Positions 18,107 to 30,181 of a stretch of 50,477 nucleotides of DNA are shown here, one piece after another (position 1 is the stretch's first letter; every line of letters starts with the position of its first letter). Where the stretch lies: contig JACZKQ010000078.1 of NCBI GenBank assembly GCA_014859965.1, positions 1-50,477 on the forward strand. Direction: 5' to 3'. The notes under the pieces were generated by a model. The model worked only from the letters and a program-made list of their open reading frames with translations, had not been told where the DNA came from and ran no database searches. Position numbers and translations under genes: made by a program. Source of the stretch: Phycisphaerae bacterium. GTDB taxonomy: Bacteria; Planctomycetota; Phycisphaerae; Sedimentisphaerales; Anaerohalosphaeraceae.

Positions 18107-18991
18107 TTACTCGACGTTCTGAACCTGTTCCTTGATCCGGTCAACGGCGCATTTGATATCAATGACCCACTGCGAAATGCGGGCGTCGGAGGCCTTGCTG
18201 CCGATGGTGTTCGCCTCGCGCAGCATTTCCTGACTGATAAAATCCAGCCTGCGACCCGCGTGGTCGGCCTCGCGACAGCATTTTACGAACTGCTCCAGGT
18301 GCGACCCTAAACGTATAAGTTCTTCGGAGATATCACACCGATCCGCGAACACGGCCATCTCGCGCGCCAGGGTTTCTTCGTCAATCTTCAGCTTGCCGTC
18401 CGAGAGAAGCTGCGCGACACGCCTCTTGAGCTTTTCGTGATATTCCTCGATGACGACGCCGCTTCGCTTGCGAATCTCCGTCAGCTTGTTTTCAATGACC
18501 TCGCAGTTGGCGATCAGATCGACCGCCAGAGCTTTACCCTCGACGGCGCGCATTTCCTTGAGGCGATCGATCGCCTGTCCGGTCAACTGCAGAATGACAC
18601 GTTTCATTTTGTCGCTTTGTTCGCTGTCGGGGCTGACCGGCTGAACAATGCCCGGCAGCACCAGCAGCGACGCCAGATCGAGGCGGCAGTTCACGTGGTT
18701 GCTGCCGGCAAGCGAGCCCAACTTGTCCATGTAGGCCGCCAATGCGTTTTCGTCTATTTCAAAAAGCGCCCGACCCGAAACGTTTTTCATCCGGAGCGAA
18801 AAATTGACCGCCCCGCGATGTATCTTCTCGCGGTGCAGCATCTCAATATCCGCCTCCAGGTACGCGGCGATATCGGGCAGTCGAACATGCGGCTTGAAAT
18901 AACGATTGTTGACGGCGCGGATCTCGACCGTATAGACGATCCCCTCCGCCTCCGCCGTTGCTTCGCCAAAACCGGTCATACTGCTGATCAT
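18107..18991 (-). CDS. yicC: YicC family protein (endoribonuclease family)
   Basis: A 294-aa protein that begins MISSMTGFGEA, the diagnostic YicC start, contains EIRAVNNRYFK, and ends in the DUF1732 block with SHLEQFVKCC, GRRLDFISQEMLREANTIGSKA and a C-terminal IKEQVQNVE. E. coli and Bacillus homologues are reported RNases that degrade specific small RNAs. The gene sits 17 bases after secG and 7 bases before gmk, the widespread yicC-gmk pairing. It is cytoplasmic. Confidence 0.92.
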   Translation of the reverse strand: MISSMTGFGEATAEAEGIVYTVEIRAVNNRYFKPHVRLPDIAAYLEADIEMLHREKIHRGAVNFSLRMKNVSGRALFEIDENALAAYMDKLGSLAGSNHVNCRLDLASLLVLPGIVQPVSPDSEQSDKMKRVILQLTGQAIDRLKEMRAVEGKALAVDLIANCEVIENKLTEIRKRSGVVIEEYHEKLKRRVAQLLSDGKLKIDEETLAREMAVFADRCDISEELIRLGSHLEQFVKCCREADHAGRRLDFISQEMLREANTIGSKASDARISQWVIDIKCAVDRIKEQVQNVE

Positions 18992-28240: not shown

Positions 28241-28651
28241 ATGAAGCACGTCATTGAGACACTCGCCGTTTCAACACGGCAGCGCTGCGAAATGATCGAC
28301 ATCACCGGGCGAATAGAGCAGGTCTTGGACCGCAGCGGCATTTCGTCGGGAACAGTCGTTGTATCCTGCCCCCACACCACCGCCGCGATAACGATCAACG
28401 AGAACGCCGACCCGGATGTCATGCACGACGTCCTGCTCACCCTTGAAGAGCTGGTCCCGGAGAATCGCCGCGGCTACCGGCACAGTGAAGGCAACAGCGA
28501 CGCGCACGTCAAGAGTTCCATGTTCGGCTGCACTGAAACCGTCATAGTTGACGGCGGCCGCTTGGCGCTGGGCACGTGGCAGGGAGTTTACTTCTGCGAA
28601 TTTGACGGTCCGCGAAGCAGAAAAGTCAGAGTTTATTGCAGCGGCGACTAA
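28241..28651 (+). CDS. yjbQ: YjbQ family protein (secondary thiamine-phosphate synthase type)
   Basis: A 136-aa protein of the UPF0047/YjbQ family. Diagnostic segments are VVSCPHTTAAITINENADPDV, HSEGNSDAHVKSSMFG and the closing LALGTWQGVYFCEFDGPRSRKV. The conserved His/Asp/Cys cluster around PHTTA and NSDAH is intact. Family members show weak thiamine-phosphate synthase activity; the main role is unclear. A GGGAGG site precedes the ATG. It follows argS by 48 bases, and the small RNA candidate on the opposite strand points at its 3' end. Confidence 0.88.
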   Translation: MKHVIETLAVSTRQRCEMIDITGRIEQVLDRSGISSGTVVVSCPHTTAAITINENADPDVMHDVLLTLEELVPENRRGYRHSEGNSDAHVKSSMFGCTETVIVDGGRLALGTWQGVYFCEFDGPRSRKVRVYCSGD

Positions 28652-28738
28652 CACAGTAGTCCGCTTGCCTTAGCATGCCCATAGAAACGGAATCGCACCG
28701 GCTGTTCAACAGGCATGCGGCGGGCTCTAAATGCGCGC

Positions 28739-28837
28739 AAAAAAATGGCGAGGTTGTGGGTCCGTCTGGGGGGAAAACGGGTTCCCACTTAGCCTCGCCG
28801 AGGTCTATCGTTAAGCTCAAATGAGCTTCACTTTCGT
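28739..28837 (-). ncRNA. Candidate small RNA of about 99 nt with its own promoter and terminator
   Basis: On the minus strand a consensus-like promoter (28843-28871) is followed by about 99 nt that end in a strong intrinsic terminator. From the 5' end: a 6-7-bp hairpin, AAGCTCA / TGAGCTT (28828-28813); a short linker; then a long interrupted hairpin made of GGCGAGG/CCTCGCC (28799-28793 with 28753-28747), GTGGG/CCCAC (28888-type inner arms at 28788-28784 and 28760-28756) and ACGG/CCGT, closed by a loop with six cytosines (28773-28768); then seven Ts (28745-28739). No ORF with a ribosome site lies inside. It is not recognisable as SRP, 6S, tmRNA or RNase P RNA. A C-rich loop could pair with G-rich ribosome sites; that role is inference. 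Confidence 0.6.
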
Positions 28838-28842
28838 TATTA

Positions 28843-28871
28843 ACTATATCGGACGAGTGACCCAAAGTCAA
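28843..28871 (-). promoter_or_regulatory. Sigma70-like promoter of the small RNA candidate
   Basis: TTGACT (28871-28866) and TATAGT (28848-28843) are separated by exactly 17 bases; both hexamers differ from consensus at one position. It is the best minus-strand promoter match in the gene-free stretch 28652-29086 and faces away from the topoisomerase gene. Confidence 0.65.
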
Positions 28872-29013
28872 TGAAAAAAAATCCCAGAATTCAAAAAAAC
28901 TTCACAGAAAACAGCCCAAGATGCCCAAATTGCCAGAAAAACGCGGTTTTCTTCCTTTCCAGTGGCCGGCAAATGCGTAGGAAAAAACAAAATCGGACGT
29001 GCGGCGATAGCCC

Positions 29014-29042
29014 TTGCGGGCGAAGCGGTTGTGAAGTAAACT
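29014..29042 (+). promoter_or_regulatory. Weak promoter candidate for the topoisomerase VI A gene
   Basis: TTGCGG (29014-29019) and TAAACT (29037-29042) are 17 bases apart, 45 bases before the ATG at 29087. An inverted repeat, TGAAGT/ACTTCA (29032-29045), overlaps the -10 region and could be an operator. The rest of 28872-29013 is A-rich with no gene that I can support. Confidence 0.3.
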
Positions 29043-29086
29043 TCATGCGTTCAGAACGAACTGCGGTTTTCTCGGAGTAGTGATAT

Positions 29087-30181
29087 ATGTCCCAGACCAA
29101 ACAGGCTCCCGTAGCCAAGCAGATTGCCGATAACGCTCAGGATGTTTACGACAAAATCCTGAAGAAGCAGAAGCCCACCATGAGCACGCCGGTGCGGTCG
29201 CTGGCAAACGTCAAGTACCAGCCCAAGAAGGGCTTTCTGGAGATGCGGGGCAAGATCAAGCAGCGCACGCTGACCGTCGGGACGGTCAAAACCTTCGCCC
29301 AGACGCTCAAGATGATGGCCCTTTCCAAGGAACTCATCGAAAAAGACGATATGGCGACCAAACGAGAGGCCTACTATATCTCCAAGAACTGGGGCAAGGC
29401 AGGCTTTTCCGAGCAGCCCGAATCCGACACGATCATGGACGACGTCGAGGCCATGTTCGGCGTCAACCGCGAACAGCTCAAGTTTATTCCTGAGGAAAAA
29501 GGAGGCGATATCGCCGGAAAGCTTATCGTTATCGACCGGGACGCCTCCGGCAAGAAGCTGCGCATCGACTGCACCAAATTCGGCTCCGGGGCCTACTCAA
29601 TTCCCATCGATGTCGAGCACCTTCAATTCGAAAGCGACGCTAAATTCATCCTGGCCATCGAGACGGCCGGCATGTTCCAGCGGCTCGTAAAATACGATTA
29701 CTGGCACAAGAACAGTTGCATCCTGATCAGTATGGGGGGCGTGCCCACGCGAGCCTGCCGTCGCTTCATCCGCCGCCTCAGCGACGGCCTCAAAATCCCC
29801 GTGTATGCCTTCGTCGACGGCGATCCCTATGGTTATTTCAACATCTACCGCACCCTCAAAGTCGGCAGCGGCAATGCCGCGCATCTGAATGAATACTTCT
29901 GCGTGCCAAAGGCGACATTCCTCGGCGTGACGCCTCAGGATGTCGTCGACTACGAACTGCCGACGCACCCCCTCAAGGAGGTCGATATAAAGCGGGCCAA
30001 GGACGCCCTCAAAAATGACCCCTTTGTCAAGCACCACAAGCGCTGGCAGGAGTCGATCAATCAGATGCTCAAGATGGGCATCCGCGTCGAACAGCAGGCA
30101 TTCGCAAAGCACGGCCTCGACTTCGTCGTCAACAACTATCTCCCCGATAAACTGGCGAGCACGTCGAAGTTCCTGCCGTGA
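29087..30181 (+). CDS. top6A: DNA topoisomerase VI subunit A
   Basis: A 364-aa Spo11/Top6A-type type IIB topoisomerase subunit. The winged-helix (CAP-like) domain carries the catalytic tyrosine in KREAYY (Tyr96 or Tyr97). The Toprim domain has Glu192 in AIETAGMFQRL, the GVPTRACRRFIRRL block and the metal-binding Asp244/Asp246 in DGDPYGYFNIYRTL. Length and order match archaeal and plant subunits, and the sequence appears intact. The holoenzyme needs the GHKL ATPase subunit B, but no Top6B gene lies in this window. It should cleave and pass duplex DNA if B is encoded elsewhere. The gene is single, preceded by a long noncoding stretch. Confidence 0.9.
   Translation: MSQTKQAPVAKQIADNAQDVYDKILKKQKPTMSTPVRSLANVKYQPKKGFLEMRGKIKQRTLTVGTVKTFAQTLKMMALSKELIEKDDMATKREAYYISKNWGKAGFSEQPESDTIMDDVEAMFGVNREQLKFIPEEKGGDIAGKLIVIDRDASGKKLRIDCTKFGSGAYSIPIDVEHLQFESDAKFILAIETAGMFQRLVKYDYWHKNSCILISMGGVPTRACRRFIRRLSDGLKIPVYAFVDGDPYGYFNIYRTLKVGSGNAAHLNEYFCVPKATFLGVTPQDVVDYELPTHPLKEVDIKRAKDALKNDPFVKHHKRWQESINQMLKMGIRVEQQAFAKHGLDFVVNNYLPDKLASTSKFLP

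Follow-up and report, generated by a model that had tools for sequence, protein, structure and literature searches.

The closest described counterparts of the RNA gene investigated here act through cytosines that are exposed in hairpin loops. In RepG from Helicobacter pylori, the terminator carries a C/U-rich loop, the pairing partner of which is a homopolymeric G tract within the leader of an mRNA (PMC8295292). The C-rich loops of sX13 from Xanthomonas repress without Hfq, and the G-rich motifs concerned are located near starts, including those of several type IV pilus genes (PMC3771888). B11, a 6C RNA of Mycobacterium abscessus, acts as a repressor on an mRNA whose leader contains six guanosines (PMC10470900).

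The locus of our study resides on contig JACZKQ010000078.1 of a Phycisphaerae bacterium (assembly GCA_014859965.1), whose 50,477 nucleotides were analysed as a whole and are referred to as the window. The window RNA resembles RepG in the succession of a 5' hairpin and a terminator hairpin with a C-rich loop. However, this loop contains a pure tract of six to eight cytosines in the window RNA and its relatives, no sequence relation between the two RNAs was seen, and the target tract of RepG is phase-variable and located well upstream of the ribosome-binding site, whereas the G tracts described below are found at this site. It also differs from sX13, which carries three loops with C4 or C5 motifs in place of a single C6–C8 terminator loop, and it has no match in Rfam. 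In the open-access literature, we found no characterised small RNA for Phycisphaerae.

Architecture of the RNA gene

The RNA gene is located on the minus strand of the window between positions 28871 and 28739 (Table 1). A previous inspection of the DNA, the sequence-only reading, had described at this place a near-consensus promoter, a separate 5' hairpin, an interrupted hairpin followed by seven Ts and an apical loop with six consecutive Cs, all of which we have recovered where it had placed them. The gene is contained in a gap of 435 nucleotides between yjbQ, which ends at 28651, and top6A, for which the same reading had claimed that no ORF would fit and where we also found no convincing one. 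The promoter is conserved at homologous loci, since a sigma-70-type promoter with 10 or more matches out of 12 is present in 60 of 133 distinct upstream regions, compared to about 2.7 in shuffled sequences.

The 99-nt stretch folds with a predicted energy of −36.2 kcal/mol, as opposed to −20.5 ± 3.0 kcal/mol in shuffles (z = −5.3). For the 5' hairpin, which was folded in 29 relatives, a mean z of −2.4 against mononucleotide shuffles, with weak values in several of them, suggests moderate support across relatives. A consensus terminator scan of the window did not list the compound hairpin because this hairpin is interrupted. The GCGC that directly follows the T run has been kept in several families of the class, and T runs elsewhere in the window do not generally have it.

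Table 1. Coordinates of the RNA gene, its elements and related features. Positions refer to the window unless a locus (L) is named.
Feature	Position	Strand	Observation
−35 element TTGACT	28866–28871	−	TTGAC in 89 of 133 distinct homologous upstream regions
−10 element TATAGT	28843–28848	−	17-nt spacer from −35; homologous promoters seen and scored
Predicted transcription start	near 28836	−	about 7 nt downstream of −10
5' hairpin	28810–28831	−	fold; sequence varies between species, hairpin usually kept
Compound, three-part terminator hairpin	28747–28799	−	fold
CCUCGGCGAGG	28793–28803	−	identical in 30 of 30 first-round relatives; covaries in distant members
GGCGAGG, 3' part of CCUCGGCGAGG and 5' strand of terminator stem	28799–28793	−	alignment
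Middle stem, 5' strand GUGGG	28784–28788	−	pairs with 28760–28756; 5 of 5 pairs changed on both sides (111 sequences)
Apical stem-loop CCGUUUUCCCCCCAGACGG	28762–28780	−	4 of 6 stem pairs changed on both sides (111 sequences)
C6 tract of apical loop, proposed pairing site	28768–28773	−	C6–C8 in relatives; 5 C columns invariant (111 sequences)
CCUCGCC, 3' strand of terminator stem	28747–28753	−	fold, alignment and covariation
U7 tract, predicted RNA 3' end	28739–28745	−	T run kept in relatives, often followed by GCGC
GCGC after T run	28738–28735	−	
Whole predicted small RNA, about 98 nt	28739–28836	−	inferred from promoter and terminator
top6A	29087–30178	+	topoisomerase VI subunit A, three Pfam domains
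YicC-type endoribonuclease gene	18113–18991	−	adjoins guanylate kinase gene
Tandem copies, f2	L080 3048–3122, 3197–3272	−	
Tandem copies, f2	L081 3069–3144, 3221–3296	+	
Tandem copies, f2	L077 3039–3114, 3194–3254	+	
Two-hairpin candidate, f16	L096 2991–3081	−	
Two-hairpin candidate	L097 3008–3100	−	
PilX-like gene region (G000:C191)	L468 8743–13810		candidate operon

Relation to known RNA families

The claim that the RNA does not belong to a known family was borne out by a search against Rfam 15, which detected no family at gathering score anywhere in the window; a relaxed search of positions 28650–29086 (E up to 10) returned only a snoRNA with the properties of a chance match (E 0.73, 18 of 45 bits). 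Judged by these libraries, the family seems to be a new one. SRP RNA and 6S RNA were rejected as candidates, as their genes are located elsewhere in the same genome and show no match at the locus. The 6C RNAs (RF01066) resemble the window RNA in the C runs of their hairpin loops. However, they are known from Actinobacteria and their membership requires two hairpins with C-rich loops, whereas the window RNA contains one, and RF01066 found no match in the window at gathering, nor in 28650–29086 at E up to 10. Two such loops are only found in distant candidates of the families f16 and f26 from the same class, where two adjacent hairpins with C5–C8 loops precede a T run; the best of these distant relatives, L096, scores 35 bits against RF01066, with a gathering threshold of 47. 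These candidates are possibly a bridge between the C-loop RNA and 6C, or else a case of convergence. The small stress RNAs of Alphaproteobacteria that comprise CcsR1 and share the CCUCCUCCC motif (RF02791) are a further case of a C-rich motif, and only L096 matches this family, weakly, with 23 of 65 bits and an E of 0.24.

A search for Hfq (PF17209) was negative in the genome, which is 99% complete, although it gave matches in five control genomes; this sets the RNA apart from Hfq-dependent small RNAs, where Hfq is present in the host. At the level of sequence, the RNA shares two features with the C-rich-loop pairing RNAs, the functional class of RepG and sX13: it is a predicted independent transcription unit with its own conserved promoter and terminator, and a single-stranded C tract is located in a conserved hairpin loop.

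Distribution and gene neighbourhood

A nucleotide search with a 151-nt region identified relatives in 66 of 98 related genomes, usually with one copy each. In a sample of 298 genomes from the class, a covariance model matched in 71, a tally that takes in a few weak hits that we do not regard as members. These matches concern the families f1, f2, f5, f6 and f7 of the same order and, with weaker scores, f9, f23 and others, and none was found in three complete f4 genomes, also of this order. In a phylum-wide sample, the model matched in 11 of 392 genomes, three of them outside the order and all of these weak. Where assemblies are named, they are mostly assigned to Sedimentisphaerales, Phycisphaerae or Planctomycetota, including Anaerohalosphaeraceae. 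The class-wide hits that score less than about 26 bits (L100, L104 and others of this kind), as well as L102 and L103, are devoid of the C tract and were classified as non-members, and matches of a DNA pattern in Actinobacteria and Alphaproteobacteria are probably due to chance. In f2 genomes, two tandem, diverged copies of the RNA are separated by about 150 nt, with another short C-rich stretch in between.

The neighbourhood was counted in 110 distinct cores. A convergent yjbQ is located within 350 nt in 67 of the 102 cores with enough 3' sequence (median gap 76 nt), and a divergent top6A within 500 nt in 36 of 86. The genes argS and rsfS usually follow yjbQ, and the RNA gene adjoins the gene of arginyl-tRNA synthetase. 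In f9 and f23, the neighbours are different (DHH-family, glycosyltransferase and DinB-like), and the RNA is therefore not tied to one neighbour. The presence of topoisomerase VI subunit A in a bacterium, beside the RNA in many relatives, is an observation in its own right. Contig CAMDDF010000099.1 (L110), which is filed as Candidatus Kuenenia stuttgartiensis, contains the RNA together with a top6A that is 81% identical to that of the window, for which reason this contig is probably misbinned. The sequence-only reading had also pointed to a YicC-type RNase, a family of known small-RNA degraders; the gene is indeed encoded in the window, but we found no tie between the enzyme and the RNA, and its proximity remains a coincidence of neighbourhood.

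Conservation and covariation of the structure

In an alignment of 30 relatives, CCUCGGCGAGG, the apical C tract and CCUCGCC are unchanged, with compensatory changes in the middle stem accompanying an invariant terminator stem. The test of covariance on homologous intergenic regions that had been suggested was carried out on 111 sequences, aligned without reference to structure. It showed paired positions that are both conserved and covarying, with changes on both sides in 13 of 18 pairs, and 90% of cells being paired compared to 36–49% with partners slid. The covariation score of 0.222 exceeds the values of 0.100 ± 0.005 in shuffles and of at most 0.071 in slid controls, of which the latter correct for relatedness whereas the former do not. 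Pairs at two positions of the middle stem are G-U, which is consistent with the minus strand and would be A-C if read on the other strand. From one family to another, the apical stem is exchanged for a different one (CCGUUU/AGACGG, CCGGUU/AGCCGG, GUGGUU/AGCCAC and GCGUGU/GCACGC), and despite this replacement five C columns of the loop are identical in 111 of 111 sequences; among 110 cores, the shortest C run in the loop is six. The conservation in 66 of 98 genomes, of the promoter and of covarying stems thus identifies the feature as real.

Two other interpretations of the conserved core were rejected. A small coding gene is incompatible with indels of one to two nucleotides between species and with conserved pairing in the absence of codon structure. 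A switch via the alternative hairpin CCUC-GGC-GAGG was dismissed since its pairing is broken in those f5 members that read CCACGGCGAGG.

G tracts at PilX-like genes

Because the loop consists of a pure C tract, we searched for G tracts before start codons, with the pattern TGGGGGG-N4-11-ATG scanned in 14 genomes. From four of these genomes, 99 of the listed sites were examined, which are followed by 37 ORFs of at least 60 residues. The sole homologous group among these ORFs that spans genera carries a PilX_N-type prepilin N-terminus and comprises one member each from G021 and G013 and two from G006; one member matches PF14341 at 4e-6, and others do not reach the cut-off. In G021 and G013, GUUUGGGGGG would be able to form ten pairs with the loop CCCCCCAGAC. 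Within f1, a run of at least five Gs is located 4–16 nt before the PilX-like start in 13 of 21 genomes, including that of the window, where the PilX-like gene (G000:C191) contains G5 at its ribosome-binding site (...CACGGGGGUGAUUAUG). In its region, a gene for a right-handed beta-helix protein, whose start also has GGGGG before it, comes after two genes for PilX_N-like proteins, and the region is a candidate for an operon with repeated G-tract ribosome sites.

Since the group had been picked by its G-tract pattern, a test on further genomes was stated in advance, and in these held-out RNA-positive genomes of f7 and f5 the PilX-like start is preceded by at least five Gs in 10 of 19 cases. In total, 25 of 44 RNA-positive genomes have G5–G7 at the ribosome-binding site of the PilX-like gene, with start codons picked by rule and by eye, compared to 1 of 25 homologous loci from genomes in which the RNA was not detected, for some incomplete ones by nucleotide search only. 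The proposal that the C loop would target G-rich ribosome sites has thus gained a recurrent candidate in one gene family. The sole RNA-negative locus with a G tract, G106, belongs to f16, the family with weak two-loop candidates. Fisher tests gave 6e-6 overall and 3e-4 for the held-out set, where the positive side counts genomes, the negative side counts loci and orthologues are not independent. The contrast is an association that is confounded by phylogeny, because RNA-negative genomes are phylogenetically separate, their homologues are mostly more distant and some genomes are incomplete.

In a background of 542 genes from 800 kb of one complete relative, a permissive count yielded G5 in 15 cases (2.8%), and four syntenic control genes showed it in 1 of 190. 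The closest full-length RNA-negative homologues mostly have GGAGG-type sites. Predicted duplexes between loop and site amount to −14.8 kcal/mol in RNA-positive and −11.3 kcal/mol in RNA-negative cases (p 0.004), with a modest −13.3 kcal/mol for the genome of the window, where the site is only G5. About 19 of the 44 RNA-positive genomes do not contain a G5 tract at the PilX-like gene. In f2, the RNA is present in genomes that are mostly devoid of a clear PilX-like gene, and other targets should therefore exist.

Discussion

The RNA gene, its conservation, the covarying stems that enclose an invariant loop and the G tracts are features observed in the sequences, from which we infer transcription, pairing, repression, target and signal. 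In the mechanism that we propose, a small stand-alone RNA, about 98 nt in length, would be made from its own housekeeping-type promoter and end at an intrinsic terminator, whose hairpin would present the unpaired tract of six to eight cytosines in its apical loop. This tract may pair with G5–G7 at the Shine-Dalgarno position of target mRNAs, thereby blocking the binding of ribosomes and lowering translation without Hfq. Such translational repression is favoured because the anatomy of the RNA is that of RepG and its logic that of sX13 and of B11/6C, and repression rather than activation is suggested by the position of the site and by the precedents of RepG, sX13 and 6C. The evidence favours the unit of promoter, RNA and terminator acting in trans through its C-rich loop, as it had been envisaged initially, with promoter and paired positions conserved and no known family matching, and we consider the described Hfq-independent mechanism at G-tract ribosome sites to be probable. 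The best candidate for a target is the PilX_N-type prepilin-like gene of the same genome, an assignment to which we would give about even chances.

A real trans-acting RNA with a C loop might also find its true targets elsewhere, with the tract at the PilX-like gene being merely the preferred ribosome-binding site of this gene. G tracts can pair with the anti-Shine-Dalgarno sequence and thus serve as ribosome-binding sites, the genome of the window alone contains 70 pattern matches with TGGGGGG before ATG in many genes, and f2 carries the RNA in spite of its mostly missing PilX-like gene; conversely, the scarcity of G5 upstream of genes and at the control genes, and the use of GGAGG-type sites in most RNA-negative relatives, make this explanation rather unlikely. 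The recurrence of the loop complement at the ribosome-binding site of one gene family in RNA-positive genomes would not be predicted if the loop were to bind or titrate a protein, such as a C-preferring KH-domain protein, as a sponge without pairing to mRNA. An invariant loop within covarying stems is as much expected of a protein site, and the tandem copies in f2 and the paired C-loop hairpins in f16 and f26 resemble repeated binding sites, yet we regard a sponge as improbable.

In many genomes the RNA is located on the 3' side of yjbQ and on the 5' side of top6A, with yjbQ convergent in most of the cores counted, which would be compatible with a local cis element that acts as terminator or attenuator for its neighbours or regulates yjbQ or top6A in antisense. 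This appears very improbable, as a separate promoter is conserved upstream, the T tract stops about 90 nt before reaching yjbQ, the RNA is kept at many loci that lack top6A and in f9 and f23 in the absence of yjbQ, and no mRNA is located downstream on the RNA strand, which is defined by the G-U pairs. Finally, the match to the promoter alone is at chance level (1 found compared to 0.9 ± 1.0 expected in 3 kb), but the idea that hairpin, T run and promoter-like hexamers have come together by chance is already refuted by the conservation and covariation, which extend over an order and further, and can be practically dismissed.

In the preferred reading of a trans-acting C-loop RNA, the kind of mechanism is already known, whereas the RNA family seems to be new. 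More tentatively, and with somewhat less than even confidence, we envisage a family that is unique to Phycisphaerae, that has originated independently of RepG, sX13 and 6C, and that would control prepilin-like surface or secretion proteins order-wide through G-tract ribosome-binding sites, with tandem and two-loop derivatives in other families; as a base-pairing small RNA with a conserved target, it would be the first in Planctomycetota. With a C loop that is held while its stems change and a recurrent G-tract site, the RNA makes Hfq-independent post-transcriptional control directly testable in this phylum. If true, the combination of a C loop and a G-tract ribosome site at pilus-type genes would constitute another apparent convergence with Xanthomonas.
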